This document shows, piece after piece, positions 16,600 through 35,318 of a stretch of 35,318 bases of DNA (position 1 is the first letter of the stretch; each line of letters opens with the position of its first letter). The stretch comes from Candidatus Rokuibacteriota bacterium (GTDB lineage: Bacteria; Methylomirabilota; Methylomirabilia; Rokubacteriales; CSP1-6). The stretch covers positions 1 to 35,318 of the forward strand of contig JACQWB010000040.1 in assembly GCA_016209385.1 (NCBI GenBank), in the 5' to 3' direction. The translations under genes were made by a program, and so were the position numbers. The notes beneath the pieces are model-generated. The model worked only from the letters and a program-made list of their open reading frames with translations, did no database searches and was not told where the DNA came from.

Positions 16600-16708
16600 A
16601 AAGCGTTCTGTTGTGTGCTGTGGAATGGGACCAGCTGTTTGCTCAAAAACTCACGTGCTTGCTGAGACCTGGCGGGGAGAGAACCGTCCCAGTCCTGGAG
16701 GGACTCCG

Positions 16709-19579
16709 ATGAGCCGAGACGTTGCGCGCAAGCTGGTGGCTGTCCTGCTCTTTCCCACCCTCTGGCCCACTCTGGCTCTGGCCCAGGAGCCCAAGGCCGG
16801 CGTCGTCACGACCCTGCAGGGACAAGCCACGGTCGCACGTCCAATTCTCCCCCGACCGGTTGCGTTGAAGTTTAAGGACGACGTCTTCGTCCGTGACCAG
16901 ATCGATACCCGTGAAAACTCCATCGTCAGGCTGCTCCTGGGCGGCAAGGCGCTGGTGACGATCCGGGAGCTTTCCGCGTTTACCGTCACCGAGGAGCCGG
17001 GCCGCGCCGTGGTGGACCTACAGTCGGGGAAGCTAGCCGTGGCGGTATCCAGGCGTCTGCTCAGGCCCGGCGAGTCCATCGAGATCCGCACCCCCAACGC
17101 CGTTGCCGCGGTGCGGGGGAGTTTACTCGTTGCTGAGGTCAGGATCGTCGCGGGAGTTCCTGAGACTCTTTTCACGGCCCTCCAGGTCACCGTGCCGATC
17201 CTGGTTTCCTTGCGGGCTGATCCCACCGTCAGCATCCCCCTCGGCATCAACCAGGCCGTAGGGGTCTTGGGACTGGGGGCGGCCTCGAGGGCGGGATCGG
17301 TCCAGACGATTACCCCTGAGCAAGCCAAGGAGGTCGGCAAGACGGCCGAGGCGCCCAAGCCCAAAGAGCAGAGCGAGAAGCCCCCGGAACAGGTGGCCGA
17401 GAAGGTCAGCAGCGACAAGGTTCAGGAGGCCGCCCAGCTTGCGGCTCAGCTTGCCCCGGCGCTCCCGACTGCGCCTCCGCCTCCGTCCGTGGCCCTGGCA
17501 CCGCCGCGCACCTCGACATCAGACATCGGCGTCCAGGAACAATCCAGCACTCAGACGGCGCCTACCCTTCTGGATGTGCCGGATGTCCTGATCAAAAATA
17601 CCTCGAAGACCTTGGCTCTGGGCGAGACGTTGAAGACGTTCGGCTCTGACACCGTCCGGAGCGGCAAGTCTCCTGTGGTGGAGGTGAGCAACTCCACGGT
17701 CAGCCAGTCCGGGGACGGCAGTGTGATCCAGACGGCTCCAGGGGTGACCGTAAAGTTGAACGGACCGCTCCTGGTCGCGAGCCCGACCAGCAGCCTTAAC
17801 CTGCTCGGCAGCCTGCTCTCCGTTAACGGGACATTCAGCAGCAGCGCGGATGCCCCGCTCGTTCAACTTTCCGGTACCGAGGTCATCCACACGGGGATCG
17901 AGGGCTTGATCGAGGTCGCCCCAGGCGCCAAGCTCACCGTGACCGGGCAGCTCCTTAGCGCTCTCAACAGCAATGTCCAAGCCGGAACGAGCCTCCTCAC
18001 CGTGGCGGGCAGTTTGACAAGCACCGGGAGCGCCCCGCTCCTGCAGTTCGATTCGAGCGCGGTCACCAGCCTGCTCACGATTCCAGGATCGGACGTCAGC
18101 CTTCAGGGCCCCTTGTTTAGCTCGACCAAGGGGACCGTGACGACAAACTTCGATGCCGTCAGCATCTTCAATGGTGGGACGCTGACGAATACGAGCACCC
18201 TCCCGCTGATCCAGCTGAGCGGGACCACGGTCAACGTCGGGACCCATGGCGCCGATACCCACCTCGTTCGGGTGTTCGGCGTGCTGGCCGGCAAGCGCTC
18301 CTCGGTCACTCTGGCGGGGGCGCTGCTGAGCGCCGCTGACAGCGCGCTGACTGTGAGAGGAGACGACTTCATCGAAATCGCGGCCGGCGCCAAGGTGGCG
18401 AGCACCGGCAGCGCGGCACTCGTCCAGTTGACCAATACGCCGCTCACGGTGACCGGCACGCCCGCGCTCGTCAACGCCTTCCTCCATGTTGTCGGCTCTG
18501 CTGGCGGGTTTAGCCCAGAGCTTGCGCTCAGCGGGCCGCTGCTCGCCGCGACAGGGAGTGCCTTAAAGACCAAGGGTTCTTTCATAGTCATCGAGTTGGA
18601 CGGGATCGTCACCAGCACGACGACCGAGCCTTTTATCAAGTTGACCGGTGGCTCCCTTGAGACCGGGAGTCCGGACGAGAGCCTTCTCAGCCTGGAGACC
18701 GGAGGCAAGCTGAATCTGAAAGGGTCGCTTCTCAGCGCTAACAGCAGTACTCTCACCCTCCCGGGAGGGTTGGTCGCCATCGACGACGACGGCCAGCTCG
18801 TCGTAACTGGCTCGACCGACCCCCTGGTGTCGATCACTGGAGGGACCCACTCGATCGCGAGCACGAGCGGGGAGGCGATGTTCGACCTGCAGGGGAGTGC
18901 GACCGCGGTGGATGCGGAGACAGGCCTGACTCTGGGGACGGACAAGCCGCTCCAACATGGCGGAGCGCTCCTCGAGATTTCGGGGGCCACGGTGAGCGGC
19001 CAGAAAGGCCTGAGGATTGACACCGCCCTTCTGGAGGCCACGGCCCCGCTCCTGAACCTCAAGGCGGGGAGCAATCTCACCACGAGCACGGATGCCATAG
19101 ATCTCTCCCTCAAAGCGAAGGTCACCAGCCTTGGGCCAGTCATCAAGCTAGATGCGAGCACTCTCAACGTCGCCAGTGGGGCGCTGATCAACCTCGCGGG
19201 CGGGAGCTTTCTGAAAGTGACCGGAGATCTCTTCCAGCTCAGCAACGGGAGTATCATCAACGTCAACGGCCTGAGTAACGGGTTCCTGATCGCCGCCTCC
19301 GGCGGGTCTATCCTGAATGTCTCCGGGGCTCTCGTCGTGTTCAACGGCACGGGCGGCAACAGCATTGTTATGAAGAACAACCTCCTACCCACGACGACTC
19401 TCAACGTGGGGGCCTTTTCGTTCCCGATCCTCCTCGTCAACGGGGCTCAGAGCACCCAGGTCTCCATCAACGGCACTCCGATCAAAGGCTCCACCTTGGG
19501 CAGCATCACCTTCCCCAACGGGGGCAGCCTGATCAAGGTCGACGGCCCCACGGCCAAGGTCGTCATCTCGGGGCTATAG
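16709..19579 (+). CDS. Giant exported FecR-domain protein with beta-solenoid-like repeats (copy A)
   Basis: 956 aa from ATG 16709, with GGAGGGACTCCG before it; the longer frame lacks a credible start. Signal peptide 1-25 (ending LALAQ). FecR domain about 28-150: GVVTTLQGQATV, DQIDTRENSIVRLLLGG, VVDLQSGKLAVAV, IRTPNAVAAVRGS. Next come a small conserved beta domain with VGVLGLGAA, a Lys/Glu-rich then Pro-rich linker (about 205-265), and a 650-residue region of short strands repeating patterns like APLVQLSGTEV, LSLQGPLFSST and TSTLPLIQLSGTTV, which suggests a parallel beta-helix. No Cys was noticed. FecR domains sense or scaffold envelope signals; the solenoid would project from the cell surface. 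Gene B at 20138 is a paralogue. Confidence 0.85.
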   Translation: MSRDVARKLVAVLLFPTLWPTLALAQEPKAGVVTTLQGQATVARPILPRPVALKFKDDVFVRDQIDTRENSIVRLLLGGKALVTIRELSAFTVTEEPGRAVVDLQSGKLAVAVSRRLLRPGESIEIRTPNAVAAVRGSLLVAEVRIVAGVPETLFTALQVTVPILVSLRADPTVSIPLGINQAVGVLGLGAASRAGSVQTITPEQAKEVGKTAEAPKPKEQSEKPPEQVAEKVSSDKVQEAAQLAAQLAPALPTAPPPPSVALAPPRTSTSDIGVQEQSSTQTAPTLLDVPDVLIKNTSKTLALGETLKTFGSDTVRSGKSPVVEVSNSTVSQSGDGSVIQTAPGVTVKLNGPLLVASPTSSLNLLGSLLSVNGTFSSSADAPLVQLSGTEVIHTGIEGLIEVAPGAKLTVTGQLLSALNSNVQAGTSLLTVAGSLTSTGSAPLLQFDSSAVTSLLTIPGSDVSLQGPLFSSTKGTVTTNFDAVSIFNGGTLTNTSTLPLIQLSGTTVNVGTHGADTHLVRVFGVLAGKRSSVTLAGALLSAADSALTVRGDDFIEIAAGAKVASTGSAALVQLTNTPLTVTGTPALVNAFLHVVGSAGGFSPELALSGPLLAATGSALKTKGSFIVIELDGIVTSTTTEPFIKLTGGSLETGSPDESLLSLETGGKLNLKGSLLSANSSTLTLPGGLVAIDDDGQLVVTGSTDPLVSITGGTHSIASTSGEAMFDLQGSATAVDAETGLTLGTDKPLQHGGALLEISGATVSGQKGLRIDTALLEATAPLLNLKAGSNLTTSTDAIDLSLKAKVTSLGPVIKLDASTLNVASGALINLAGGSFLKVTGDLFQLSNGSIINVNGLSNGFLIAASGGSILNVSGALVVFNGTGGNSIVMKNNLLPTTTLNVGAFSFPILLVNGAQSTQVSINGTPIKGSTLGSITFPNGGSLIKVDGPTAKVVISGL

Positions 19580-20137: not shown

Positions 20138-23100
20138 ATGAGCCGACGCGTTGCACGCAAGGTGGTGGCGGTGCTGCTCCTTTACACCCTCTGGCCTGCC
20201 CTGGTCCTGGCCCAGGAGCCCAAAGCTGGCGTGGTCACGACCCTGCAGGGGCAGGCCACGGTCGCGCGTCCAATCCTCCCCCGACCGGTTGCGTTGAAGT
20301 TTAAGGACGACGTCTTTGTGCGGGACCAGATCGATACCAGGGAAGCTTCCATCGTACGGTTGCTCTTGGGGGGCAAGGCCCTCGTGACGATCCGGGAGTT
20401 GTCCAGGTTTACCGTCACTGAGGAACCCGGCCGTGCTGTCGTGGACCTTCAGTCGGGCAAGCTCGCCCTGGCGGTGGCCAAGGGCCTGCTGAGGCCGGGG
20501 GAGTCCATCGAGGTCCGCACCCCCAACGCCATCGCCGCGGTACGCGGCAGCCTGATCGTCGCCGAGGTCAGGATCGTCGCTGGCGTTCCTGAGACTCTTT
20601 TCACGGCCCTCCAGGTCACCGTGCCGATCCTGGTTTCCTTGCGGGCTGATCCCACCGTCAGCATCCCGCTCGGCATCAACCAGGCCATCGGGGTCTTGGG
20701 ACTCGGGGCGGCCGCGAGGGCGGGAGGTGTTCAGACACTGACCCCTGCGCAGGCCAAGGAGGTGGGCAAGGCGGCCGAGGCACCCAAGCCCAAGGAACAG
20801 AGCGAGAAGCCCCCGGAACAGGTGGCAGCGAAGGTCAGCAGCGACAAGGTTCAGGAGGCCGCCGAGCTCGCCGCTCAGCTCGCCCCTGCGCCACCGACTG
20901 TGGCCCCGCCCCCGCCTGTGGCCCCGCCACCCCCACGGACGTCAACATCCGATATCGGCGTCCAGAACCAATCCGCCACGCAGACGGCACCGACCCTTGT
21001 GGGGCCGCCGGAGATCCTCATCAAGGACACCTCCAAGACCTTGGGCGCCGGAGAGACGCTCAAGACGTTCAGCGGGACCGTCCGCCGCACCAGCACTGGA
21101 CCCGTCGTGCAGATCATCAACGCCACGGTGACCCAGCCAGCGTCCGATAACTTGATCCAGTCGGACCCCGGAGCGGACGTGGGCCTTGCCGGGCCGGTTC
21201 TCGACGTGAGCAACGGCATCCTCACGACCGGCGGCAGCGTGCTGCGGTTCAGCAACGGCATCCTCACGACAACCACCCTCAAGCCCCTCATCTCCTTCAA
21301 CCCGAGCAGCTCCACCAGCGGCGGTAACTTCCTCTTATTGACCGACGGCTTCGTCCTGGACCTGAAGGGCGCGCTCCTCACCGCCCAGGACACGACCTTC
21401 AAGACCGGTGACCCGGCCACCACCCCGCGCTCGTTTATCTTCATTGGCGACAGCGCCAAGCTCACGAGCACGACGCTCGATCCCCTGATCACGTTCAGCC
21501 AGAGCACGCTCGACACGTCGGGAAGCTTTTTCAGCCTACGCCGGTCCGGAACCACACCGAGCGCCGTGGAGCTGGCCGGACCGCTGCTGAAGGCGGCGGG
21601 CGGGAGCATTAAGGCGTTCACCACCGCACTGAAGGACACCTCGGGGAACCCCGTGCTCTGCTGCAACCTCCTCTCTGTGGGCCAGGGGGCGAAGTTCACG
21701 AGCACTACTGGGAGCCCGCTGATCGAACTGAACGGCACGACCATCGATGTCGGCAGCAGGGTTGTCAGCGTCTTTGACACCACGTCCATTCAAGGGGAGC
21801 CAACCATCACGGCGCCGGCCTCACTGACGCTGTCGGGTCCGCTTCTGAAGGCTACGGATGGCAGCATCAAAGGGATCCTGGACCTGTTGGGAATCTTCCG
21901 CTCCTCGTTGACCAGTAGCACGACTGACCCCTTGATCCAGCTCGGCGGAACAACGGTAACCATGGGCGGGACCAACCCGTTCACGGGCGCCACGACAGCG
22001 GGCCGCCTGCTCCAGATGTCCGCGTCGACCACCACGCCCGCCAACCTGATCCTGAAGGGTCCGTTGTTCAGCTCGACGAATGCAACCATCGTGACCACCG
22101 ATGACGCCTTTGCCGTCTTCAACGGCGCCACGTTGAGCAGCACCACCACTAACCCCCTCATCTCGATCGATGGCGGCTCGCTGACCGCCAAAGGCTTCGG
22201 GAACTTCATCGTCCTCGCGTCGGGCACCGGCCAGCCGGCTGCTTCGGTGAGCCTTGCCGGCCCGCTCCTGAGCGCGAGCGGTACGACCCTTAAGAACGGT
22301 GACCCTACCAGCAATGTGATCAGCTTCATGTTTATCGGCGATAGCGCTACGTTCACGAGCACGAGTGCCTCGCCCCTTCTCTCGTTCAGCGGTGCCACGG
22401 TGGACGCCTCCGGCGGAATCCTTTCGCTTCGCCGCTCGACCTCGACGAGCGCCCCCAGCACCCTGACACTGGCTGGACCGCTCTTGGCGGCGACGAACGG
22501 AAGCAGTTTCGATGTCACGAGCCTCGGTTTCGAGTCATTCTCCGGCTTTAAAGCAGCCTGCTGCACGGCGTTCTTCATCGCCCAGGGGGCTCAGCTCATG
22601 AGCACCGCCACGTCCCCGCTTATTCAGCTTTCCAACTCCACCTTTAACGCCGGGCCTGATGCCCAGTCGGGAGGCACCTTCTTTAGCGTGACCGACACGT
22701 TTACCGGAGCTCCGGCGTCGGAGATCGTCGCCCCCGCGAGCGTGAGCCTCGCCGGGCCACTCCTCAGCGCCACCGACAGCAAGATCAGCGCGCTCTTCAG
22801 CCTCCTGAGCGTGGTCCGATCGAGCCTCACCAGTACCAGCACCGATCCGCTCATCCAGTTCGGCGGGACCACTGGCACCACTGTCAATCTCGGAGGGACC
22901 AATCCCTTTAGCCCCACTACTCCAACCCGGGGGTCCTTGCTCGTTACCGTAGCATCCTCTACTGGTAATACCCCGAGCGCACCCGCCACGACCTCGCTCA
23001 GAGGGCCGCTGCTCCAGGCGACGAACGCTAGCATCACTGTCACGGGTGACGTCCTGGGGATCTTCAATGGGGCGGCGGTGGCGAGCGATAGCACGTCAGG

Positions 23101-24259
23101 ACTCGTGATCCTCGACAAGACTTCACTCAAAGCTGGCAGCAGCGCGTTCACTCAGCCATTCCAAGGCGTGTTGCTTCATCTGGCGAACAAGGGTGGGCCA
23201 GGCGGGACGACCCCGTCATCCCTCAGTCTCAAGGGGCCGATCCTCGTCGCGTCGAACGGGAGTAGCCTCGAGTTTACGGGTCGGCTGGTTCATCAGTCGC
23301 TTGGCGCCACCTTCACTGGCACGGGTAGCGCCCCGTTGATCCAGCTCAACGGAAGCACGTTGAAGAGCGGCGGCAACCTGCTTGGAATCTTCAACCCTGG
23401 GACCAGGATGGATCTGAAGGGACCGCTGCTCAGCGCGGTCAACAGTACCTTGACTGTTCCCTTTGGGCTAGCCTTCATCTCTGGCGGCGGCCAGCTCGTC
23501 GTGACCGGCTCGACGGATCCCCTCGTTTCCATCAGCGGGGGCACACACTCCATGGCCAGCGCTAGCGGCTCTGCCGTGTTTAATCTGACGGGCATCGCCA
23601 CGGCAGTGGATGCGGAGACAGGCCTGACTCTGGGGACGGACAAGCCGCTCCAACATGGCGGAGCGCTCCTGGAGACTTCGGGGGCTACGGTGAGCGGGCA
23701 GAAAGGCCTGAAGATCGACAGCGCCCTTTTGGAAGCCACCGCCCCGCTCCTGAACCTCAAGGCGGGGAGCAATCTCACCACAAGTGTGGATGCGATAGAC
23801 CTCTCGCTCAAAGCCAAGGTCACCAGCCTCGGGCCGGTCGTCAAGCTGGACGCGAGCACTCTCAGCGTCACGAGCGGCGCGCTGATCAACCTCGCGGGCG
23901 GGAGCTTTCTGAAAGTGACCGGGGATCTCCTCGCTCTCAGCAACGGGAGCACGCTCAGCCTCCTCAACGGAGCGCTCCTCAGCGTGAGTGGCGGGTCAGT
24001 GTTGAACGTATCCGGCGCTCTCGTGGCGTTCAACGGCACCGGCGGCAACAAGATCAACGTGACCAACAGCCTCTGCCCCTGCACGCTGTTCAGCGGCATC
24101 CCTGTGGCCCTCACGGGTGGGGCAACTTCGTCCAACGTCAGCATCGGCAAGAACCCGACGAAGAATCCCAGCCTCGGGTCAATTAACCTGTCTTCCTCCA
24201 GCACCGCTGTCATCGTCGTGAGCGGATCCACGAGCAAAGTCACGATCGCAGCCCCGTAG
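20138..24259 (+). CDS. Giant exported FecR-domain protein with beta-solenoid-like repeats (copy B)
   Basis: 1373 aa from ATG 20138, after CTGGAGGGGCACTCTG. Same architecture as copy A: signal peptide (ending LVLAQ), FecR domain, conserved beta domain, Pro-rich linker (PPPPVAPPPPRTSTSD), then a longer solenoid-like region. Units repeat with LTSSTTDPLIQLGGTT, a short linker, and SLAGPLLSATDSK. Some segments recur at about 300-residue spacing: SFIFIGDSAKLTST and SFMFIGDSATFTST. Cys occurs as CC pairs (NPVLCCNLL, FKAACCTAFF) and CPC near the end, unlike copy A. The last 220 residues and first 260 are nearly identical to copy A, so the middle has diverged and expanded. Probably a surface-exposed, signal-responsive or adhesive protein. 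Confidence 0.85.
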   Translation: MSRRVARKVVAVLLLYTLWPALVLAQEPKAGVVTTLQGQATVARPILPRPVALKFKDDVFVRDQIDTREASIVRLLLGGKALVTIRELSRFTVTEEPGRAVVDLQSGKLALAVAKGLLRPGESIEVRTPNAIAAVRGSLIVAEVRIVAGVPETLFTALQVTVPILVSLRADPTVSIPLGINQAIGVLGLGAAARAGGVQTLTPAQAKEVGKAAEAPKPKEQSEKPPEQVAAKVSSDKVQEAAELAAQLAPAPPTVAPPPPVAPPPPRTSTSDIGVQNQSATQTAPTLVGPPEILIKDTSKTLGAGETLKTFSGTVRRTSTGPVVQIINATVTQPASDNLIQSDPGADVGLAGPVLDVSNGILTTGGSVLRFSNGILTTTTLKPLISFNPSSSTSGGNFLLLTDGFVLDLKGALLTAQDTTFKTGDPATTPRSFIFIGDSAKLTSTTLDPLITFSQSTLDTSGSFFSLRRSGTTPSAVELAGPLLKAAGGSIKAFTTALKDTSGNPVLCCNLLSVGQGAKFTSTTGSPLIELNGTTIDVGSRVVSVFDTTSIQGEPTITAPASLTLSGPLLKATDGSIKGILDLLGIFRSSLTSSTTDPLIQLGGTTVTMGGTNPFTGATTAGRLLQMSASTTTPANLILKGPLFSSTNATIVTTDDAFAVFNGATLSSTTTNPLISIDGGSLTAKGFGNFIVLASGTGQPAASVSLAGPLLSASGTTLKNGDPTSNVISFMFIGDSATFTSTSASPLLSFSGATVDASGGILSLRRSTSTSAPSTLTLAGPLLAATNGSSFDVTSLGFESFSGFKAACCTAFFIAQGAQLMSTATSPLIQLSNSTFNAGPDAQSGGTFFSVTDTFTGAPASEIVAPASVSLAGPLLSATDSKISALFSLLSVVRSSLTSTSTDPLIQFGGTTGTTVNLGGTNPFSPTTPTRGSLLVTVASSTGNTPSAPATTSLRGPLLQATNASITVTGDVLGIFNGAAVASDSTSGLVILDKTSLKAGSSAFTQPFQGVLLHLANKGGPGGTTPSSLSLKGPILVASNGSSLEFTGRLVHQSLGATFTGTGSAPLIQLNGSTLKSGGNLLGIFNPGTRMDLKGPLLSAVNSTLTVPFGLAFISGGGQLVVTGSTDPLVSISGGTHSMASASGSAVFNLTGIATAVDAETGLTLGTDKPLQHGGALLETSGATVSGQKGLKIDSALLEATAPLLNLKAGSNLTTSVDAIDLSLKAKVTSLGPVVKLDASTLSVTSGALINLAGGSFLKVTGDLLALSNGSTLSLLNGALLSVSGGSVLNVSGALVAFNGTGGNKINVTNSLCPCTLFSGIPVALTGGATSSNVSIGKNPTKNPSLGSINLSSSSTAVIVVSGSTSKVTIAAP

Positions 24260-24383: not shown

Positions 24384-25724
24384 ATGACTCGCTCGAAATG
24401 GTGGCTGCTCGCTCCTGCACTCCTACTGGTCTTGTCCGGTGCCGCGCCCGGCGAGGGGGGCGGGCTGTCCAACACCGAAACGTTCGGCGGGTTCGAATTC
24501 AACTTCAATAACCCGGGGGCCCGGGCGCTCGGAATGGGTGGGGCGTTCATCGCAGTGGCCGATGACGCGACGGCTGTGGTGACTAATCCGGCCGGACTCG
24601 TCACCCTCCAGCGCCCTGAGATCTCCGCCGAAGTCAAGTTCACCAAGTTCACGAACACCATCAGGAACTTCTCGGCCACCGAGCAGGAGGCGCTGGCGGG
24701 TAGCGTCCGCAGCCGGGATTTCGACGACGAGGTCACCACGCCGTCGTTTTTCAGCTTTGTGTATCCGACGGAACGCCTGGTGGTGGCTGTCTTCATGAGA
24801 GAGCTGGTAAACTTCAAGACCAGCTTCATGACGGAGGGCGCGATCCTGCCTGACGGGTTCCGCTTCTTCCCGGGCGGGTTCAGGCTTTTTCCGGTCAAGT
24901 CTGACCTCGAACTTACTGCTCTCAATTTGGGAGCCGGAGTCGGCATCAACCTTGCGAAAGTTCACCCGCTCCTCCCTAGCCTCGGGGCGAGCATCGAGTT
25001 TTCGCACGGTGTGGTGAGCTCGAAGTTGCAACGCTTTTCCCTCGCTACATTTGAGGGGCCCCCGGACTTTTCTCAGGACAATGTTCGGGTGACAACCTTG
25101 GTGAGCGGAGAGGACATCAGTGCTGGGTTTAACGTGGGGGCGCTGTGGCGGCCATTGAAGGATCTCTCCCTCGGTGCAGTCTTCCGAAGGGGGCCGAGGT
25201 TCGAGATGCAGCAGACGGTAGAGCGCGGTCCGACCCTCTTTCCTGGCTCTCGGAGTTTCTTCGACTTCGCGGTCAAGGTTCCGGACGTCTATGGGGCAGG
25301 CGTGTCGTATCGGCTATTCGACCGCCTGACGGTCGGGCTCGACGTGGTCCGGATCCGATATTCGCAGCTTCTTGGAGACTTTCAGATTATCTTTTTCACT
25401 CCGGATCAGCCGTTGACCCAGCCGGGACAGTATCGGCTGGACGATGCGACGGAGGTCCACGTTGGAGCCGAGTACGTCTTCTTCGTCCGCAATGCCCTGT
25501 TTGCTCTCCGGGCGGGGTTTTTCACGGATCCCGATCACAAGATCCGTTTTACCGGACCTGCCAATCATCTGGTCGAGCGCGCCCTGTTTCCCGGCGGGAG
25601 AGACCAAAACCACTACACCGGCGGCTTCGGCGTGGTGCCCATCCCCGGCCTCCAGATCGACTTCGCCGTGAACCGGTCGGACACGGTGAACGAGTTCGTG
25701 GTCTCGACGGTCTTCCGCTTCTAG
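24384..25724 (+). CDS. FadL/PorV-like outer-membrane beta-barrel protein
   Basis: 446 aa from ATG 24384 with GGAGGAAGGGAAG upstream. Signal peptide 1-22. Just after it is the family signature NPGARALGMGGAFIAVADD followed by ATAVVTNPAGL (44-72), typical of FadL/OmpP1/PorV-type barrels. Then come alternating amphipathic strands to the end, and the last residue is Phe (FVVSTVFRF), the usual C-terminal signal recognised by the BAM machinery. FadL relatives move hydrophobic compounds; PorV relatives help export or anchor surface proteins. Its position directly after two giant exported proteins makes an export or anchoring role worth testing, but that is inference. Confidence 0.85.
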   Translation: MTRSKWWLLAPALLLVLSGAAPGEGGGLSNTETFGGFEFNFNNPGARALGMGGAFIAVADDATAVVTNPAGLVTLQRPEISAEVKFTKFTNTIRNFSATEQEALAGSVRSRDFDDEVTTPSFFSFVYPTERLVVAVFMRELVNFKTSFMTEGAILPDGFRFFPGGFRLFPVKSDLELTALNLGAGVGINLAKVHPLLPSLGASIEFSHGVVSSKLQRFSLATFEGPPDFSQDNVRVTTLVSGEDISAGFNVGALWRPLKDLSLGAVFRRGPRFEMQQTVERGPTLFPGSRSFFDFAVKVPDVYGAGVSYRLFDRLTVGLDVVRIRYSQLLGDFQIIFFTPDQPLTQPGQYRLDDATEVHVGAEYVFFVRNALFALRAGFFTDPDHKIRFTGPANHLVERALFPGGRDQNHYTGGFGVVPIPGLQIDFAVNRSDTVNEFVVSTVFRF

Positions 25725-26806: not shown

Positions 26807-29110
26807 GTGGATGCGTTGAGGCGGATCGGTCCCGCAGCGGGCAGCGTCCTCGCACTCCTTGTCCTGCTTGTCCTCTTCCTTTCCCCGCCACCCGCGTGGT
26901 CTGAGGCGTGGAAGGAGGCCTATCTGAAGGGCCTGGACCTGATGGATGCCCAGAAGTGGGAGGAGGCTGTCCAGGCGTTCGAGAAAGCCATTCAGGCGAA
27001 TCCTCGCGAAAACAAAAGTGTTCGCCTCTACGGGATGCGGTACGGCTATTTTCCCCACCGGGACAAAGGCATCGCCCTCTATCGCCTGGGGCGGTGGGAG
27101 GCGGCAACTCAGGCCCTCGGGGAGTCGCTCAGGCAGGGTTTCTCGGAGGAGGCCGCTCGGTATGCAGAGCTCGCCCGCAAACGCCAGCCGATTGTGGAGC
27201 TGCCGCGGGTCTTCCGAGGCACGTGGTGGGACTACTACGAGAGGGGCCTCCTCCATAGCGAGCGCGGCCTCTGGAATTTGGCCGTCGAGGACTTCCGGGC
27301 CGCCCTTAAGGGTCAGAGCCGAGAGGAGCGCTTTGCCCGAACTTACGGCGTCCACTTCATCGAGTACTTTCCCGTGCGCGAGATGGGGGTGGCCCTCTAC
27401 CACGAGGGGCAGTTTAAGGCGGCGGTCCAGGCTCTGGAGCGCTCCCTGGCCACCGCTCCGACCGCAAAAGCCGCCTACTATTTGAACCTGGCCCGGGCGG
27501 CGCTGCTCCGGCAGTCCGCACCGGATCGCCACCCGCCACAGATCAAGATTGGGGCGCCCCCTGACGGTCTCCTGACCAACCTCGCCAAGGTGGAGGTGCA
27601 CGGAACGGCAGAGTCGCGGAACTTCGTCGCCGGTGTCGAGATTAACGGTGAGCCGCTCCTCATCGAAACCGCGGCGGCGAGGCTCCCCTTCGCCCAGACC
27701 GTCCTGCTGTCGCCTGGTCAAAACCTCATTGAGGTCGTAGCGAGGGACTTGGTGGGCAACGAAGCTAAGGCGACGGTGGGTGTGCTCTCGGATCGGGAGG
27801 GCCCCGTAGTGGAAATCGAACGGGTGGCCCGCTCGGCGGCTGGACGGATCCAGTTGGACGGCGCCCTCTACGACAATGTGCGGCTGGGTGCCCTCATGAT
27901 CGATGGCCGCAGCATCCCGCTCAGCGGAGTGACCGAGAGCAAGTTCTCGGCCGAGGTACGGAGCGGGGTGGACTCGGTCCTGATCGAAGCCGCCGACGCG
28001 GCCGGTAACCTGACGCGCGCCCGGCTGCCGATTCCGCCGGAGCTGAGGCAGCCTGGCGCGAAGCGGTGGCCGTCGGTCCGGCTCGTCGCCTGGGGGCCGG
28101 CGGTCCCGGTCTTCTTCCACACTCGGGAACCCTTGACCATCGAGCTTGAGCCTGTCCCGACGGAGGTCCAGCAGGAGACGATGCCGATAAGCTGGATCGT
28201 TGCCGCAGTGTCCGGGCTGGCCGCGGTGAAGATCAACGACGAGGCTAAGACCGTCCGTCAGGCTGAGGGCGCTAAGCCTCAGATCTTCAGTCATATCCTC
28301 ACCCTGGCCGAGGGCGAGAACGTTTTCATCATCGGTGCTGCCGATCGCGCGGGCCGGACGGTCTCGAAAAAGCTTACGGTCGTCCGGAAGGTCGAGGAGG
28401 TCAACCAGATCGGCTCGCGGCTGAGCGTGGCCGTGATGCCGTTCCAGCACAAGGGGAAACCTACCGAGTTCTACGAGGGTGCCTACGAGGCGATGGTGGA
28501 CGCGCTGGTGAACCAAGGTCGATTCAAGATCGTGAGCCGGGTCCAACTGGAAAATATTCTGAGGGAGCTGAAGCTCAGCCGAACGGAGCTTGTGGACCCC
28601 GCGACGGCCGTCCGAGTCGGAAAGCTGGCCGCCGCCGAAGCGATCATGGTGGCGACGGTGGCGGAATACACCCGCGAGGCCGAGACGTACGTCCAGCTCA
28701 TCAATACGGAGACAAGCACGGTGTTGGCGTCCAAGGACGTGTTCGACCCGGCCAAGTCCCCGGGCAGCGTCCAGCTGAAGATGCGCGAGCTGGCGGCGAA
28801 GATTCGCCAGGACTACCCGGTGGTGGCGGGGGCGGTCATCGCGGTTCGGGACCGGCGGGTCGCCGTGGGCTTGGGGAGTCAGAAGCGCGTACGCCCCGAC
28901 ATGAAAGTGATTGTGTATCTTGAAGGAGACCCGCTCATCGATCCCGAGACGAAAGTGGTGCTGGATCGGAACGTCGAGCTGCTGGCGGAGGGGTTGCTCA
29001 CCGAGGTACGCCCCCAGGTGTCGTTCGCCGACATCAAGAAGGGCGAGGAGCTGTCACGGATTGAACGCCACGTCGCGCAACGCAAGAGCCTCAAGGTGAT
29101 TACCAAGTGA
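26807..29110 (+). CDS. Exported TPR, Ig-like and CsgG-domain protein
   Basis: 767 aa from GTG 26807; TTG 26816, with GAGGTGG before it, is an alternative start. A signal peptide or N-terminal anchor spans 8-31 (AAGSVLALLVLLVLFLSPPPA). TPR repeats lie at about 32-230 (GLDLMDAQKWEEAVQAFEKAI, then similar blocks). Two Ig-like segments (VEVHGTAESRNFVAGVEING, and similar) lie at 260-500. The CsgG-type domain starts near 539 (LSVAVMPFQHKG) and includes ENILRELKLSRTELVDPATA. A FlgT-like C-terminal piece (VRPDMKVIVYLEGD) ends the protein. CsgG domains build outer-membrane or periplasmic assemblies; here none of the pore lipoprotein features is seen. The same CsgG/FlgT pair ends the next gene product, suggesting the two interact. 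Confidence 0.85.
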   Translation: MDALRRIGPAAGSVLALLVLLVLFLSPPPAWSEAWKEAYLKGLDLMDAQKWEEAVQAFEKAIQANPRENKSVRLYGMRYGYFPHRDKGIALYRLGRWEAATQALGESLRQGFSEEAARYAELARKRQPIVELPRVFRGTWWDYYERGLLHSERGLWNLAVEDFRAALKGQSREERFARTYGVHFIEYFPVREMGVALYHEGQFKAAVQALERSLATAPTAKAAYYLNLARAALLRQSAPDRHPPQIKIGAPPDGLLTNLAKVEVHGTAESRNFVAGVEINGEPLLIETAAARLPFAQTVLLSPGQNLIEVVARDLVGNEAKATVGVLSDREGPVVEIERVARSAAGRIQLDGALYDNVRLGALMIDGRSIPLSGVTESKFSAEVRSGVDSVLIEAADAAGNLTRARLPIPPELRQPGAKRWPSVRLVAWGPAVPVFFHTREPLTIELEPVPTEVQQETMPISWIVAAVSGLAAVKINDEAKTVRQAEGAKPQIFSHILTLAEGENVFIIGAADRAGRTVSKKLTVVRKVEEVNQIGSRLSVAVMPFQHKGKPTEFYEGAYEAMVDALVNQGRFKIVSRVQLENILRELKLSRTELVDPATAVRVGKLAAAEAIMVATVAEYTREAETYVQLINTETSTVLASKDVFDPAKSPGSVQLKMRELAAKIRQDYPVVAGAVIAVRDRRVAVGLGSQKRVRPDMKVIVYLEGDPLIDPETKVVLDRNVELLAEGLLTEVRPQVSFADIKKGEELSRIERHVAQRKSLKVITK

Positions 29111-29160: not shown

Positions 29161-32100
29161 GTGACGAGGGTGGCCGAAACCGAGCGTCCGTCGAGCGAGA
29201 AAGACCCGGAAGGAGTGTGGGAATACCTCCGCCGACGCAGCGAGCTGGATCGGGAGATCCAATCGAAGTTCGCTCGCCCGGTGACCATCATGTTCACCGA
29301 TATCAAGGGCTCCACGACGTTCTTCGACATGCGCGGCGACATCGAAGGGATCACCATGCTCCAGCGCCACAACGACCTGGTCTTTCCCCCCATTGAGGCG
29401 ACTGGGGGGCGGGTGGTGAAGCGGCTGGGTGATGGCCTCATGGCGACCTTCCCGGGGCCCGCCAATGCGGTCCGGTCGGCAAGGGAGATCCAGCGGGTGC
29501 TGGCCGACTTCAACAAGGGTCGGTCTGAGCGGGAGCAGATCCACCTGCGGATCGGTATCAACGCTGGGATGGGGATCGTGGAAGAGCAGGACGTCTTTGG
29601 CGATGTGGTCAACGCCGCCGCCCGCGTCCAGGGCCTTGCCGAGCCCGACCAGATCCTGGTGACGGAGTCGGTCTATACAGAGGCGAGTCCGGAGCTCGGG
29701 ACCGCACTGTTCCTCCCCGTCGGTGCCTCGGCGCTCAAGGGGAAGTTGGAGAACGTGATTCTCTACGAGGTGGTCTGGTCCCCGGAGCTGAGCAGTCTCC
29801 GCGCGGCGGTCCGCGGCGTCCCCGAGGGACCGCGCAAGGTCTTTGTCCTGGAGCTTTCCCGGCTTGCCGGCCGCCTGAAGGTCTCCAGCTACGAGCGGCT
29901 AGAGGGTGAGGAGAAAACCCTTCGCGCCTATGAAGAGTTGGAGTTTGACGAGGCGGAGCTGAGTGAACCCGTCCAGCGGGTCGGAGCTATCCTCGAGGCG
30001 GGAGACCGGGAGGGGCGGGTTGCGAAGCCGGACCTCGAAGATCTCGCCCGGCTCGGCCAGTTCCTCTACGAACGGCTCCTTCCTCCCCAGACCCGGGACA
30101 AGCTGGCACAGAGTGCGGTCCTGGAGCTGATGCTGGCCATCGACGATCAGCTCGTTCAGATTCCCTGGGAGCTGCTGCACGACGGCCGGGAGTTCCTTTG
30201 CCTACGGTTTGGGATCGGTCGGGTGGTCAGCACACCTCAGCCGGTGGCCCCGGGCAAGCTACGGGAGCTCCAGAGCCCACTTCGGATCGGGATCGTTACA
30301 GATCCCCGGGGCAACCTCCCAGGCGCGCGGCGGGAGGGGACCCAGCTGATGGCGCAGTTCGGCAGCCGGCCGGAGTTTCGCGTGGTGGCGCCAGCGAAGA
30401 TGGTTACCCGGGAGGAATTCCTCACCCACTTCACTACGTGCGACGTGATCCACTTCGCGGGCCATGCTGAGTTCGACGCCGCGGCCCCGGCCGCTAGCAG
30501 CTTTCTCCTATCCGACGGCCGGTTGCCAGCAGCCGAGCTCGGCAAGCTCAGGAACGGGGAGACCGTCCCAAGCCTGATCTTCTTGAACGCGTGTCAGTCG
30601 GGACAAACTCCGGAGTGGAGAGGGCCAGAGTTGGCCACCAAAGTCTTCGGGCTCGCCAACGCAATCCTCCTCACGGGGGTGAAGCACTACATCGGCAGCG
30701 TCCGGGCCGTTCAGGACCGGTCAGGCTACCAGTACGCCGTCGAGTTCTACCGCCAGCTCGGAAACGGGCAGACGGTCGGGGTCGCGATCCGCGAGGCTCG
30801 GCGAGCGCTGGTGGAGCGCTACGGCAAGGCCTCGCTGGCGTGGGCCACCTATGTCCTCTACGGCGATCCCACCTCCAGGTATCTCCCGCAGCGGGCCGAG
30901 GTCCCAAAGCGAATCCGCGTGGGTCGGCGCGCCCGGCTTGTGCTGGCGGGCAGCGTCGCCGGGTTGATTGTGCTCCTCTCGGGAGGCCTCTTCCTCACCG
31001 GCTTTCCAACCGGCCCCGGGCAGCAGTCGCTCTTGGAAGCGGCCTACCGGAAGCTCGACGCGGGTCAGCTCGAGGAGGCAGCGCGGGACTTTCAGGCGTT
31101 GGTGGGAGCCCGTCCAGCGGTGGCGTACGAGGGGCTGGCAGCCGTAGCGCTCAAGCAGAACGAGCTGGCCAAAGCTGAGAGTCTTTGCGCCGATGCCCTG
31201 CGACTGGATTCCCGGCGCGCCAGTTGCCTGCTCATCCAGGGCGACGTCCGGCTCCTCAAGGGCGACCTTGAGCACGCCGGAGGGGCCTACGAGGCAGTGC
31301 TGGCCCTCTCGGGGGTGACGGCGGCCCAGCAGGCTACGGCCTACAATCGGGTCGGGCGGCTGGCGGCTGAGCGGGGGCATACGGACCGGGCTGCGACAGC
31401 CTATGCCAAGGCGCAGGAGCTCGACCCCCAGAACTGGGAGAGCCTGAGCAATCTGGGTGCGCTCCTCCGACGACAGGGGCGGCACGCTGAGGCCGTGGGG
31501 CTCTTCGAAAAGGCCGCTGCGCTCCGACCTGACGACCCCATGGTTCAGACGCTCTTGAAAGAGAGCCGGGAAGCGGAGACCCTCACCAAGGATCGTGAGC
31601 GTCAGCGCCGCGTCAATGAGCTGGTGGAAGAGTTAACGCAGCGCTACAAGCGGGGCGACGTGGTTCGCCTCCCGGCCGACCCAGACGAGTGGACTTCAAA
31701 GCCCCTCACCCTCTCCTTCATTGGGCTGGAAACCCGCGGGCGCGTGCCGTTTCGCGAAGGGGAGCACGACTTCTTCCTCCTCAAGCTGGGTCAGGTGCTT
31801 GAGGCAGAGACCCGGGTCCGCCTGGTGGAGCGGAACGTGCTCGACAAGCTCCTGAACGAGCTGAAGCTGAGCACCTCTGTCCTCGTCGATCCCCAGACCG
31901 CGCTTCGGCTCGGGCGGTTGCTCTCGGCGCGCCTGATCTCGGTGGGGAGCATCGCAGCCGGGGGTGGCGAGTGGCAACTGACGCTCCGGGTCATCGAGAC
32001 CGAGACTTCGGCCGTGACCGCGTCCGTGGCTCAGGCTTTCCCATTGAGCCAGCCAAGCCGCGAGGCCGCGGAGCTGGTGGGCAAGCAGCTTACGCAGCGG

Positions 32101-32352
32101 CTGGTTCGCGCCTATCCGCTTCGGGCTCGGGTGGTGGAGGTAAGCAACGGGGACGTCACGCTCAACGTCGGAACCGCTGAGGGTGCAGTCCCGGGGCTGC
32201 GGCTCCAACTCCTCCGGGAAGGCCCGCAGGGTCGGCGCGAGCTGGTGGCTGCGGTAGAGCTGGTTGAGGTCCAGGAGAAACGCTCCCGGGCCAAGGTGGT
32301 GGAGGCGCGTGGCCACGTCGCGGCGGGACTCAAGGCGCTCCAGGTGCCCTGA
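29161..32352 (+). CDS. Class III nucleotide cyclase, CHAT protease, TPR and CsgG fusion protein
   Basis: 1063 aa from GTG 29161 (GTG 29170 is an equally possible start). Cyclase domain about 38-195: MFTDIKGST with metal Asp-47, RLGDGLMATF with Asp-91, and GDVVNAAARVQ with Asn-151 and Arg-155. CHAT (caspase-like) domain about 205-580: HFAGHAEFD with His-435 and LNACQSG with Cys-478, the intact dyad. A transmembrane helix follows at about 590-612 (LVLAGSVAGLIVLLSGGLFL). TPRs run from about 620 to 800. A CsgG-like domain (LTLSFIGLETRG, then ELKLSTSVLVDPQTA) and a FlgT-like end complete it. Thus cyclase and protease face the cytoplasm and TPR/CsgG the periplasm. No signal peptide. The arrangement fits an envelope-sensing enzyme; I know of no described example with exactly this order. 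Confidence 0.9.
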   Translation: MTRVAETERPSSEKDPEGVWEYLRRRSELDREIQSKFARPVTIMFTDIKGSTTFFDMRGDIEGITMLQRHNDLVFPPIEATGGRVVKRLGDGLMATFPGPANAVRSAREIQRVLADFNKGRSEREQIHLRIGINAGMGIVEEQDVFGDVVNAAARVQGLAEPDQILVTESVYTEASPELGTALFLPVGASALKGKLENVILYEVVWSPELSSLRAAVRGVPEGPRKVFVLELSRLAGRLKVSSYERLEGEEKTLRAYEELEFDEAELSEPVQRVGAILEAGDREGRVAKPDLEDLARLGQFLYERLLPPQTRDKLAQSAVLELMLAIDDQLVQIPWELLHDGREFLCLRFGIGRVVSTPQPVAPGKLRELQSPLRIGIVTDPRGNLPGARREGTQLMAQFGSRPEFRVVAPAKMVTREEFLTHFTTCDVIHFAGHAEFDAAAPAASSFLLSDGRLPAAELGKLRNGETVPSLIFLNACQSGQTPEWRGPELATKVFGLANAILLTGVKHYIGSVRAVQDRSGYQYAVEFYRQLGNGQTVGVAIREARRALVERYGKASLAWATYVLYGDPTSRYLPQRAEVPKRIRVGRRARLVLAGSVAGLIVLLSGGLFLTGFPTGPGQQSLLEAAYRKLDAGQLEEAARDFQALVGARPAVAYEGLAAVALKQNELAKAESLCADALRLDSRRASCLLIQGDVRLLKGDLEHAGGAYEAVLALSGVTAAQQATAYNRVGRLAAERGHTDRAATAYAKAQELDPQNWESLSNLGALLRRQGRHAEAVGLFEKAAALRPDDPMVQTLLKESREAETLTKDRERQRRVNELVEELTQRYKRGDVVRLPADPDEWTSKPLTLSFIGLETRGRVPFREGEHDFFLLKLGQVLEAETRVRLVERNVLDKLLNELKLSTSVLVDPQTALRLGRLLSARLISVGSIAAGGGEWQLTLRVIETETSAVTASVAQAFPLSQPSREAAELVGKQLTQRLVRAYPLRARVVEVSNGDVTLNVGTAEGAVPGLRLQLLREGPQGRRELVAAVELVEVQEKRSRAKVVEARGHVAAGLKALQVP

Positions 32353-32368
32353 TGACCATGACCTGTTG

Positions 32369-32614
32369 ATGGTGCGCCCTGCTACAAGGCTTTTCGTCCT
32401 TTTAGCCACTCCAACCCTCCTTGGGTACTCCAGCGCGGCCTGGGGCCCGCCCGCCGGGCCGAGACAGCGTACCACGCCCTTACGGCTTCCTGCGACGCTT
32501 CCGGCTTCAAGTCGTCGCGGCGTGTACTCGCTGAAGAGCTCTCGGGCCGGGACCCCGGCGACGACGGGCGCCGGGAGATCGCGGTGTTCAGCCGCGGGAA
32601 GCCGGGAGGGCTAG
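32369..32614 (+). CDS. Doubtful short exported ORF
   Basis: 81 codons from ATG 32369. The first 24 residues (VRPATRLFVLLATPTLLGYSS) look like a signal peptide; the rest is Arg/Ser/Pro-rich and without family features. No ribosome site is seen and the end overlaps the convergent barrel gene by 4 bases. It may be a remnant of a truncated exported protein. The rest of 32353-32610 shows no other gene or clear terminator. Confidence 0.25.
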   Translation: MVRPATRLFVLLATPTLLGYSSAAWGPPAGPRQRTTPLRLPATLPASSRRGVYSLKSSRAGTPATTGAGRSRCSAAGSREG

Positions 32615-34227
32615 TAGGACCAGATCAGGGAGAGCGAGACCACGTTGCGGTCAAAACTGAAGACCGCCAGGTTGGAGCGGCTCACGATCCGCTGATACTC
32701 GGCGGCCAGGGTGAGGTCGTAGGGGAGGGGAAGCGTGAGCCCGACCATATGCGTGGACTCGGTGTCGAACCGCTCCTTCGTGTTCGGGCTCGCCACGGGG
32801 AGCAGCGTGTTCGTGTTCCGGTAATCCCGCAGGTGGATGTCGAAGTCGTATTTAAAGCGCAGCCCCGCCCAGGGCAGCGTGTACTGGAGGCCCGCAAGGA
32901 CCCGATGCCCTAGGTAGCTGAAATTCTTCCCGCGACGGCTCGGCCCTTCGGTGTCGTCGAAGTCCCACTGGTATCCGAGCTTGAGGAGATGCTTGTCGCC
33001 TTCGAAACGGAAGATATGGGTGAGGCCAGCCATCCAGTTGTTGCCGTCGCGCTTGTCCTCTCTGGGGATGTTCGTGTCGTTAGCGAACTGCTTGTTCTGA
33101 TACCGGAGCTGGAGGGCGGTGAGGTTGTTGAGGTTCTCGACCAAAGCCGCCACCGGCGCCACGGTATGCCGCTGGACGAACTCGTCGTCGTCCAGGGTGA
33201 GAAAATCGTAGGCGTACTGGAGCGCCAGTTGATAGGGGAGCGCTCCCACCGTACTCCGGTAGGTGACGCCGAGGCCGCCCAGGTGATCCACGATATTGAA
33301 GCTCGGGAGGTCGTTGTTGTAAGTGGTGAAGAACGAGTACGTGGCCGTGGCCTCCACCGACCCGATCCGGAGAAACGCGTAGTCCAACCGGAGACTGGCT
33401 AGCCACCCCGGACTCTCATGCTTCTGCTGCCGCAGCACCTGGACGAGCGCGTCCGCGCTGGGCTCTGGGTTGACGGAGACGTTGTCATCGAAGAAACCGC
33501 CGACGCGAACCTCAGCCCTGAACCGCCGCTCCTTTTCCCGGGCTGCGACAACGGCCTCCCGCAGGCGTTCGGCGGGACCGGTGAGCGGCGAGGCGGGCTG
33601 AAGCCGGAGGGCCTCCTCGATCTCGGCGGCGGCTCGCTCAGGGAGTCCCAAGATCCCGAGCGCCAGGCCTGAATAGAACCGGGTGAGCTGCTGGATGTTG
33701 GGATCAGTCGTCGCTCCTGCGCGGAAAGCCCGGAGGGCCCCCTGATAATCCTTCTTCCGGTAGCGCATGAACCCCACATAGTACCCGAGGCCATCCAACC
33801 TTGGATTGACGGTAAAGACCTGCTCCAGAAGGAGCTGGGCCTGCTCGTACTTCTCCAGGCTGAAGTAAACCACCCCGAGCTGGAAGAGGACGGTCTGATC
33901 CTTCGGGTCACGGGTCCGCGCGCGCTCGAGGGCTTCGACAGCCTGGTCGAAGCGCCCGAGAGCCACGCGCACGAGGCCCGTGTAGTAGAGGGCGTCCACG
34001 TTGTTCGGGTCCAGCTCCAGGGCCTGGCCCAGCGCGGCTAGCGCATCCTCGTAACGCTTTTCCTCGTAGGCGAGGATTGCCTGGGCGACGAAGACCTCTG
34101 CCTCCGCCTGCTGGGCCGACGCCGGCGCGCTCACCAGGCCGACAGCCAGGGTCGCGCCGAACAACGTCGCCATGAAAAGAAGAAGGCCTCCCAGAGCACC
34201 ACTCCCTGAGAGGCCTTGCTGTTGCAT
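32611..34227 (-). CDS. Exported TPR plus outer-membrane beta-barrel protein
   Basis: 538 aa from ATG 34227 on the minus strand, with GGGAG about five bases before it. Signal peptide to about residue 39 (ends SAPASA). TPRs occupy about 40-230 (AILAYEEKRYEDALAALGQAL, ALYYTGLVRVALGRFDQAVEAL). A short charged helix (AREKERRFRAEV) then leads into a barrel of about 14 strands (VRVGGFFDDNVSVNPE, then SLRLDYAFLRIGSVEATATYSFF), ending SLIWSY with a final aromatic. TPR plus barrel resembles the Slam (DUF560) surface-lipoprotein exporters and cellulose/PgaA-type export porins. It is transcribed with the sigma-54 activator gene upstream. Confidence 0.85.
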   Translation of the reverse strand: MQQQGLSGSGALGGLLLFMATLFGATLAVGLVSAPASAQQAEAEVFVAQAILAYEEKRYEDALAALGQALELDPNNVDALYYTGLVRVALGRFDQAVEALERARTRDPKDQTVLFQLGVVYFSLEKYEQAQLLLEQVFTVNPRLDGLGYYVGFMRYRKKDYQGALRAFRAGATTDPNIQQLTRFYSGLALGILGLPERAAAEIEEALRLQPASPLTGPAERLREAVVAAREKERRFRAEVRVGGFFDDNVSVNPEPSADALVQVLRQQKHESPGWLASLRLDYAFLRIGSVEATATYSFFTTYNNDLPSFNIVDHLGGLGVTYRSTVGALPYQLALQYAYDFLTLDDDEFVQRHTVAPVAALVENLNNLTALQLRYQNKQFANDTNIPREDKRDGNNWMAGLTHIFRFEGDKHLLKLGYQWDFDDTEGPSRRGKNFSYLGHRVLAGLQYTLPWAGLRFKYDFDIHLRDYRNTNTLLPVASPNTKERFDTESTHMVGLTLPLPYDLTLAAEYQRIVSRSNLAVFSFDRNVVSLSLIWSY

Positions 34228-34282
34228 CACGTTCTCCCGCGCTGAGCAAGTTTCTAGTCAACCGCAACGGCCTGTGGTCCAT

Positions 34283-34323: not shown

Positions 34324-35318
34324 TCACTGCAGGGTAGGTCCCGTGGCTTCGTTGGGAGGGGCGAAGCCCGGCTCGATCCCGTCGGTGCGCCGGACGCCCC
34401 AGGCCGCTAGCTTGGCGAGGAGCGTGTTGCGGTGGAGGCCCAGGAGCCGCGCCGCCCGGCTCTGGTTCCACTCCACGCGCTCCAGCACGCGCAGGATGAA
34501 CTGGAGCTCGAACTGCTCGCGCGCCACCTTGAGCGTGGGTGGCGCGTCGGCGGCCCCCGGGCCCGCGTGGTTCGCGAGGGCGAGGTCGAGCGGGAGGTTG
34601 TCCAGGGAGAGGACGGGGCCCGTGGCCAGCGCGACCGAGCGCTCGATGATGTTCTCCAGCTCCCGCACGTTTCCGGGCCAGGAGTAGTTCAGGAGCATCG
34701 GCAGCGCCCCGCGGGAGATCCCGCGCACCTCCTTGCCGAACTCGTGGTTGTACTTGCGGATGAAGTGGTCCACCAGGAGCCGGATGTCCTCCCGGTGCTC
34801 ACGGAGGGGCGGCACTTCAATGGGCACCACGTTGAGCCGGTAGTAGAGGTCTTCCCGGAAGGTGCGCTCCTTTACCGCGCGACGGAGATCCAGGTTGGTC
34901 GCCGCGAGGAACCTCACGTTGATCTTGATGATCCGGGTGCCGCCGAGGCGCTCCACCTCGCGCTCCTGGAGGACCCGGAGGAGCTTGGCCTGGAGGTCTA
35001 CGCGGAGACTCCCGACCTCGTCCAGGAACAGGCTGCCCCCGTGGGCCAGCTCGAACTTCCCAAGCTTCTTCGCCTGCGCGCCGGTGAAGGCTCCCTTCTC
35101 GTAGCCGAACAGCTCGGACTCGAGCAACGGCTCCGGGATCGCGGCCAGGTTCACGGCCACGAAGGGCTGCTCGCGCCGGGGCCCCTGGCGGTGGATCGCG
35201 CGGGCGATCAGCTCCTTGCCGGTGCCGCTCTCCCCGGTGATGAGCACGGGGGCCGTCGTCTGGGCCACCTGCGCGATCAGCTCGTAGTTGCGCACCATCC
35301 CGGGATGGCGCCCCACGA
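34324..35318 (-). CDS. Sigma-54-dependent transcriptional activator, partial (5' end outside window)
   Basis: 330 codons of an NtrC-type protein whose N-terminus lies beyond the window. The AAA+ domain has Walker A GESGTGKE, the sigma-54 contact loop GAFTGA, Walker B SLFLDEVG, and the arginine-finger region TFREDLYYRLNV. The C-terminal Fis-type helix-turn-helix is WNQSRAARLLGLHRNTLLAKL. It hydrolyses ATP to remodel sigma-54 RNA polymerase; its sensory N-terminal (receiver, PAS or GAF) is not visible. It directly precedes the TPR-barrel gene and may regulate this locus, though the promoter next to that gene looks sigma-70-like. Confidence 0.95.
   Translation of the reverse strand, partial: VGRHPGMVRNYELIAQVAQTTAPVLITGESGTGKELIARAIHRQGPRREQPFVAVNLAAIPEPLLESELFGYEKGAFTGAQAKKLGKFELAHGGSLFLDEVGSLRVDLQAKLLRVLQEREVERLGGTRIIKINVRFLAATNLDLRRAVKERTFREDLYYRLNVVPIEVPPLREHREDIRLLVDHFIRKYNHEFGKEVRGISRGALPMLLNYSWPGNVRELENIIERSVALATGPVLSLDNLPLDLALANHAGPGAADAPPTLKVAREQFELQFILRVLERVEWNQSRAARLLGLHRNTLLAKLAAWGVRRTDGIEPGFAPPNEATGPTLQ

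Follow-up and report, generated by a model that had tools for sequence, protein, structure and literature searches.

The CHAT protein Csx29 of Craspase/CASP (type III-E CRISPR) cleaves Csx30 and thereby relieves the inhibition of an ECF sigma factor, CASP-sigma, as found by experiment (PMC10028731). In Campylobacterota, gene clusters combine CHASE2–adenylate cyclases with phosphodiesterases, FecR-domain proteins and TPR proteins (PMC9239204). HetF is a cyanobacterial membrane CHAT protein whose active site is needed for function and which interacts with FtsI (PMC8406250). A protein of Gemmata massiliana has the order cyclase–FGS–TRADD-N–caspase (PMC8195603). Cyclase–FecR–TPR clusters, membrane CHAT proteins, cyclase–caspase fusions and modules of CHAT, sigma factor and inhibitor are each known. 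A further protein to be compared is DdvA of Myxococcus (PDB 8rot), a transmembrane anti-sigma factor by the title of its record, with a CHAT-type fold and a link to an ECF sigma factor.

The window analyzed here, a stretch of 35,318 nucleotides from Candidatus Rokuibacteriota, encodes a fusion of a class III nucleotide cyclase, a CHAT protease domain, a transmembrane (TM) helix, TPRs and a CsgG-like end. The earlier note on this DNA knew of no description of this order, and none of the fusion or of its gene cassette was found in the open-access literature; likewise, no open-access paper containing both 'CHAT domain' and 'CsgG' was found. At its sigma-linked loci, the family resembles Craspase in that a protein of the CHAT fold is encoded next to an ECF-like sigma factor and a putative inhibitor. 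However, the switch for Csx29 is target RNA in complex with Cas7-11, whereas the CHAT domain of this family is membrane-tethered and linked to a predicted periplasmic TPR/CsgG part. The inhibitor would be a small zf-HC2 protein, CRISPR genes are absent, and cleavage, experimental for Craspase, is presumed here. The CHASE2 clusters also have a membrane cyclase with FecR-domain outer-membrane and TPR proteins, but their sensor is CHASE2, whereas the window protein has a TPR–CsgG-like part, an N-terminal cyclase and a CHAT domain between the cyclase and one TM helix. HetF resembles it by its N-terminal CHAT domain with a conserved active site and by its role at the cell envelope, and the window protein has a weak local NCBIfam match to HetF. 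Reports on HetF, however, mention neither a cyclase nor a TPR–CsgG part nor a cassette. By the title of its record, DdvA is itself the membrane anti-sigma factor, whereas the anti-sigma-like protein of the present family is separate and soluble. In the Gemmata massiliana protein, a single chain likewise carries a nucleotide cyclase together with a peptidase of the caspase fold, but in another order, with other adaptors and in a conflict-system context, and no TM–TPR–CsgG part is reported for it.

Domain organization of the fusion protein

The features of the locus are listed in Table 1. The gene is a single open frame with a GTG start, and its GC content by codon position (0.73/0.45/0.81) is of the coding type. 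As the whole protein recurs in three other genomes (71, 54 and 53% identity), it is not a product of chance or misassembly. Profile searches with the translation matched the cyclase, CHAT, TPR and CsgG families, the last at the borderline. Together with alignments of the relatives, they confirm the domain order that had been read from the letters in one polypeptide. The window gave no match to Rfam, and in the operon of the fusion gene nothing matched a sigma-70-type promoter.

Table 1. Features of the window and of the fusion protein.
Feature	Residues	Position	Strand	Evidence
FecR-domain repeat protein of 988 aa, in tandem with its paralogue		16613..19579	+	PF04773, E 2.2e-6
Large FecR-like repeat protein of 1373 aa, probably at the surface		20138..24259	+	Paralogue of 16613-19579
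OMPP1/FadL-type outer-membrane barrel		24384..25724	+	PF03349, E 8e-20
Partner: TPR–Glucodextran_B (Ig-like)–CsgG protein, N-terminal hydrophobic signal		26807..29110	+	Pfam
Cyclase–CHAT–TM–TPR–CsgG-like fusion, 1063 aa		29161..32352	+	ORF, Pfam, alignments with relatives
Class III nucleotide cyclase	37-195	29269..29745	+	PF00211, E 2.4e-16
CHAT protease domain, full profile	297-569	30049..30867	+	PF12770, E 2.3e-37
CHAT His435 codon	435	30463-30465	+	Alignment
CHAT Cys478 codon	478	30592-30594	+	Alignment
Single TM helix	~593-611	30937..30993	+	Hydropathy in all four relatives
TPR repeats, predicted periplasmic	~621-800	31021..31560	+	Pfam, AF2
CsgG-superfamily/LpoB-like domain and FlgT_C-like end	~846-985 and 986-1063	31696..32349	+	Weak in window, clearer in relatives

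By alignment, the metal-binding residues of the cyclase are Asp47 and Asp91, the substrate residues Lys87 and Asp144, and the transition-state residues Asn151 and Arg155; both metal aspartates, the Asn and the Arg named earlier are thus present. The closest solved relative by sequence is Ma1120 (PDB). Its Lys101 and Asp157 form the Lys/Asp pair that specifies ATP (PMC4215837), and Lys87 and Asp144 align with this ATP-type pair. The metal and transition-state residues are kept in all ten cyclase-bearing family members, the complete set (D-K-D-D-N-R) in eight. The N-terminal domain is predicted to be a class III adenylate cyclase that would produce cAMP. About ten genes for cNMP-binding domains lie above the Pfam cut-off in the genome of the window. 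The nearest cyclase found outside the family is part of an Acidobacteriales protein (L015, 9908-12115) that also contains a Ser/Thr kinase, a TM-like segment and a TPR, a layout like that of the window fusion with the kinase replacing CHAT.

The CHAT residues His435 and Cys478 are located in alignment columns that are common to 23 and 22, respectively, of the 24 CHAT proteins of the phylum. An AF2 model of the CHAT domain (residues 226–578, 22 sequences) was obtained with a pLDDT of 87 and a pTM of 0.89 and has a confident caspase-like fold. In the numbering of this fragment, His435 follows the strand 204–208 and Cys478 the strand 247–250. Both residues thus lie just after core strands, and as judged from the model this is the usual placement in clan CD peptidases. 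A Foldseek search of the PDB with the model returned separase, Csx29/TPR-CHAT, SAVED-CHAT and the transmembrane anti-sigma factor DdvA at a probability of 1.00, whereas a sequence search of the PDB with the CHAT profile gave no match. The domain is predicted to be a caspase-like protease of clan CD with a His/Cys dyad. A full-length AF2 model from four sequences (pLDDT 50) was unusable for cyclase and CHAT.

A single TM helix, as claimed earlier, is evident from hydropathy and follows the CHAT domain in nearly all family members. It is flanked on its N-terminal side by an Arg/Lys-rich stretch. By the positive-inside rule, this stretch suggests that cyclase and CHAT are cytoplasmic and the TPR/CsgG part periplasmic. 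The fusion is likely a single-pass protein with its N-terminus inside, oriented from the envelope to the cytoplasm. The linker between CHAT and the TM helix is the least conserved stretch (28–60% identity).

The TPRs are substantiated by Pfam TPR families matched at residues 725–800, and in the full-length model the TPR stretch has a pLDDT of about 70–90 over most of its length. The CsgG match of the window protein (PF03783, residues 885–933) is borderline, scoring 21.3 bits where the cut-off is 20.8, and extends over 49 residues (profile positions 53–100 of 210); a full CsgG domain with the pore-forming parts is not present in this protein. In other phyla, the relatives that bear the cyclase have clear CsgG matches (E down to 1e-10); those without it have a FlgT_C match below the cut-off. 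The proposed CsgG/FlgT-like end is supported by these clearer matches, although that of the window itself is marginal. From the profiles, it appears to be a CsgG-superfamily/LpoB-like domain and not a CsgG secretion channel.

Loss of protease dyad residues in one Rokubacteria genus

The fusion protein is present in four of the 95 genomes of the phylum, and two of the three close relatives are encoded on contigs of Candidatus Rokuibacteriota. The CHAT Cys is missing in G027 and G028, which belong to one Rokubacteria genus. Cys478 is replaced by Ala in G027 and by Ser in G028, in which His435 is also replaced, by Gln. Asp47, Asp91, Asn151 and Arg155 of the cyclase are unchanged in both. The other CHAT proteins of the phylum in the alignment retain the Cys (20 of 20). 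Protease activity is thus dispensable at least in these two members, and the claim that all catalytic residues are intact holds for the window protein and most relatives but not for this pair. Protease and messenger need not work jointly in every member.

The dN/dS ratio of CHAT relative to that of the cyclase plus the TPR/CsgG part is 2.10 (95% 1.36–3.20) for the Cys-less pair and 1.08 (0.73–1.61), i.e. without relaxation, for the intact pair of the window and G092; each value derives from one pair and a simple method. The absolute CHAT dN/dS of the Cys-less pair is still below 1. These ratios suggest that the Cys-less CHAT domain is relaxed, yet still under purifying selection.

In the cyclase of G027 and G028 (L007/L008), Lys87 is replaced by Gln together with Asp144 by Asn, a combination found only in these two members, which may point to a different cyclic nucleotide. 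In the C-terminal part of the G028 fusion gene (L008/L012), the alignment is interrupted at about residue 906 and is regained close to the end, a pattern expected of a frameshift or an assembly error.

Family members in other phyla

Strong homologues outside the phylum were found by a search across 388 relatives and by follow-up searches. Ten genomes from four phyla encode the cyclase–CHAT–TM–CsgG-like fusion, four of them Rokubacteria and six from three other phyla; hence, the order is no singleton. The full order outside Rokubacteria includes TPRs recognized by Pfam in G281, G134 and G388 and none in G358, G391 and G392. Further members from the third phylum are CHAT–TM–CsgG proteins without the cyclase, sometimes with a cyclase-bearing copy in the same genome. 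In a tree of CHAT domains, the family separates as a single group from three other CHATs (100/99), and its cyclase-bearing members cluster. The CHAT–TM–CsgG unit appears to be the core of the family, in which the cyclase is often absent, and the cyclase fusion may have arisen once. All 20 members outside Rokubacteria retain His435 and Cys478, and the assumption of a generally degenerate protease in the family was dropped for this reason.

In a single scan of contigs the patterns fell into the cyclase and yielded mostly unrelated cyclases; only two Rokubacteria matches were true relatives, and the resulting list is not a measure of rarity. No match of the fusion protein was found in viral contigs and no full-length match on plasmids, the best covering at most 34% of the query. 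In one protein of G358 (L101, 705-3026), a predicted ATPase-like C-terminus after CHAT replaces the TM–CsgG part; no sigma pair was seen beside this gene.

Gene neighborhood and recurrent cassette

Homologues of the TPR–Ig–CsgG partner, a predicted periplasmic protein, are present in exactly the same four of the 95 genomes as the fusion gene and are adjacent to it in all four. Homologues of the FadL-type barrel (53–64% identity) are found at the other three Rokubacteria loci. Because of the co-occurrence and adjacency of the partner and the presence of the barrel at all four loci, the three genes are regarded as one unit; partner and barrel also belong to cassettes of other phyla. The C-terminal end of the partner is 31% identical to the CsgG-like end of the fusion protein, which makes a hetero-assembly of partner and receptor plausible.

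The two upstream FecR-like genes match each other in 5' and 3' stretches of 300 nt (85% and 77%) and have long repetitive middles. Both encode probable surface proteins, which were not seen at the relatives' loci. In G027 (L011, 7379-12271), an open-ended giant Calx-beta/CARDB protein is located directly upstream of the partner, in the place of a surface protein. Downstream of the fusion gene, a TPR protein (32611-34230) and a sigma-54 activator (34324-35316) are encoded convergently on the minus strand, and no homologues of either were found on the relatives' contigs.

Gene maps and Pfam matches revealed a recurrent cassette of an ECF-like sigma factor, a zf-HC2 protein, the CHAT–TM–CsgG protein with or without the cyclase, the TPR–Ig–CsgG protein and the FadL-type barrel. 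A large surface-type protein is usually present (beta-helix, LVIVD propeller, dockerin, cohesin or CarboxypepD-like). Sigma and zf-HC2 genes were found at 13 of the 16 loci outside Rokubacteria that have enough flank (20 loci in total), with a weak sigma match at one of the 13 (L134), and the pair is absent from three. These are draft genomes with many contigs and several loci end at contig ends; neighboring genes were obtained with a simple ORF picker, except for L010–L012, which were read separately. By its domain and the adjacent sigma gene, the zf-HC2 protein is probably an anti-sigma-like inhibitor of this sigma factor. The zf-HC2 proteins of the cassettes lack a TM segment, so that release by a protease in the cytosol is plausible, and the neighboring sigma/anti-sigma pair points to a specific protease output.

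The neighborhood survey thus established a conserved partner and barrel, whereas the sigma/anti-sigma pair was seen at loci outside Rokubacteria. Neither the window gene nor the G092 gene has the pair beside it. A close homologue of the cassette sigma factor was not found in the genome of the window, the best match being a generic ECF sigma factor (31% identity, E 7e-8). On another contig of this genome (G000, C203; L138, 6610-10432), ECF sigma-like, zf-HC2-looking and CsgG-like genes are present, unlinked to the fusion gene. This set was rejected as a cassette pair kept elsewhere, as it has no CHAT. Sigma was present at three and absent from four cyclase-bearing loci, and present at ten and absent from one of the cyclase-less loci (Fisher p 0.047). 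Since the loci are related by descent, an exclusion between cyclase and sigma is suggestive only.

Discussion

The reading favored here, which we hold with even confidence, is that of an inner-membrane receptor which crosses the membrane once and has two outputs, CHAT and the cyclase; CHAT would act on the anti-sigma factor at sigma-linked loci, and cAMP would be the main output in Rokubacteria. The periplasmic TPR–CsgG-like part would sense the state of the envelope or surface assembly of its own cassette, i.e. the TPR–Ig–CsgG partner, the FadL-type barrel and the large surface protein. At sigma-linked loci, CHAT would cleave or release the adjacent soluble zf-HC2 anti-sigma factor and thereby free the ECF-like sigma factor. 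The cyclase, where present, would provide cAMP as a second cytoplasmic output. In Rokubacteria, cAMP would be read by the cNMP-binding proteins of the genome, and CHAT may have another substrate, act on the receptor itself or serve as a relay. cAMP is the likelier output there because no sigma pair adjoins the gene and because the protease is dead and the cyclase conserved in one genus. The earlier proposal that an envelope event controls both a second messenger and a protease agrees with the likely topology and the intact domains, but joint action does not extend to every member. A broader version, more tentative, is a receptor class of several phyla in which a tethered cytosolic CHAT protease cuts a soluble zf-HC2 anti-sigma factor upon a periplasmic signal and an added cyclase has become the main output in Rokubacteria.

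Alternatively, the protein could signal by cAMP only. The CHAT domain, a protease by ancestry, would then have only a structural or relay function between TM helix and cyclase in Rokubacteria. The loss of Cys478 in G027 and G028, and of His435 in G028, next to unchanged metal and transition-state residues of the cyclase, the relaxed yet constrained CHAT domain of this pair, as if retained without its old chemistry, and a locus without the sigma pair are in line with this. The dyads of the window and G092 are intact and show no relaxation, however, and the dyad is kept in all members outside Rokubacteria, so we regard this explanation as unlikely, though the nearest competitor. Self-processing is rather improbable: an envelope signal would cause CHAT to cut its own or a neighboring chain, which would release a soluble cyclase from the membrane. 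This would fit the position of CHAT directly between cyclase and TM helix and the poorly conserved linker that follows it, but such variation fits any flexible linker, and cyclase-less members keep the CHAT dyad, so that release of a cyclase cannot be the general role of CHAT. We regard as very improbable a defense or cell-death module resembling Pycsar, CBASS or Craspase, with the cyclase or CHAT as the effector of abortive infection, since the weak PADLOC matches (PycC to the cyclase, E 6.6e-9; BovA to CHAT, E 5e-5) probably reflect shared domain families, frequent as caspase-fold and cyclase domains are in conflict systems (PMC8195603), and since the genes around it belong to the envelope and surface in every phylum, viral and full-length plasmid matches are lacking, and neither a cognate effector of the Pycsar/CBASS type nor defense neighbors were among the genes scanned.

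The envelope receptor with two outputs can be compared with envelope-stress systems. In the known ones, for example that of RpoE in E. coli, the anti-sigma factor is bound to the membrane, and its cleavage by periplasmic and intramembrane proteases sets the sigma factor free. If the proposal is true, a soluble anti-sigma factor and a separase-type domain on a membrane receptor would take their place, and a caspase-like enzyme would carry the outside signal inward. With cyclase-bearing and cyclase-less as well as protease-intact and protease-dead members, the family would offer a testable case of a switch from proteolysis to a second messenger. The CHAT–TM–CsgG family looks like an undescribed route by which information on the state of the cell surface reaches the inside of the cell.
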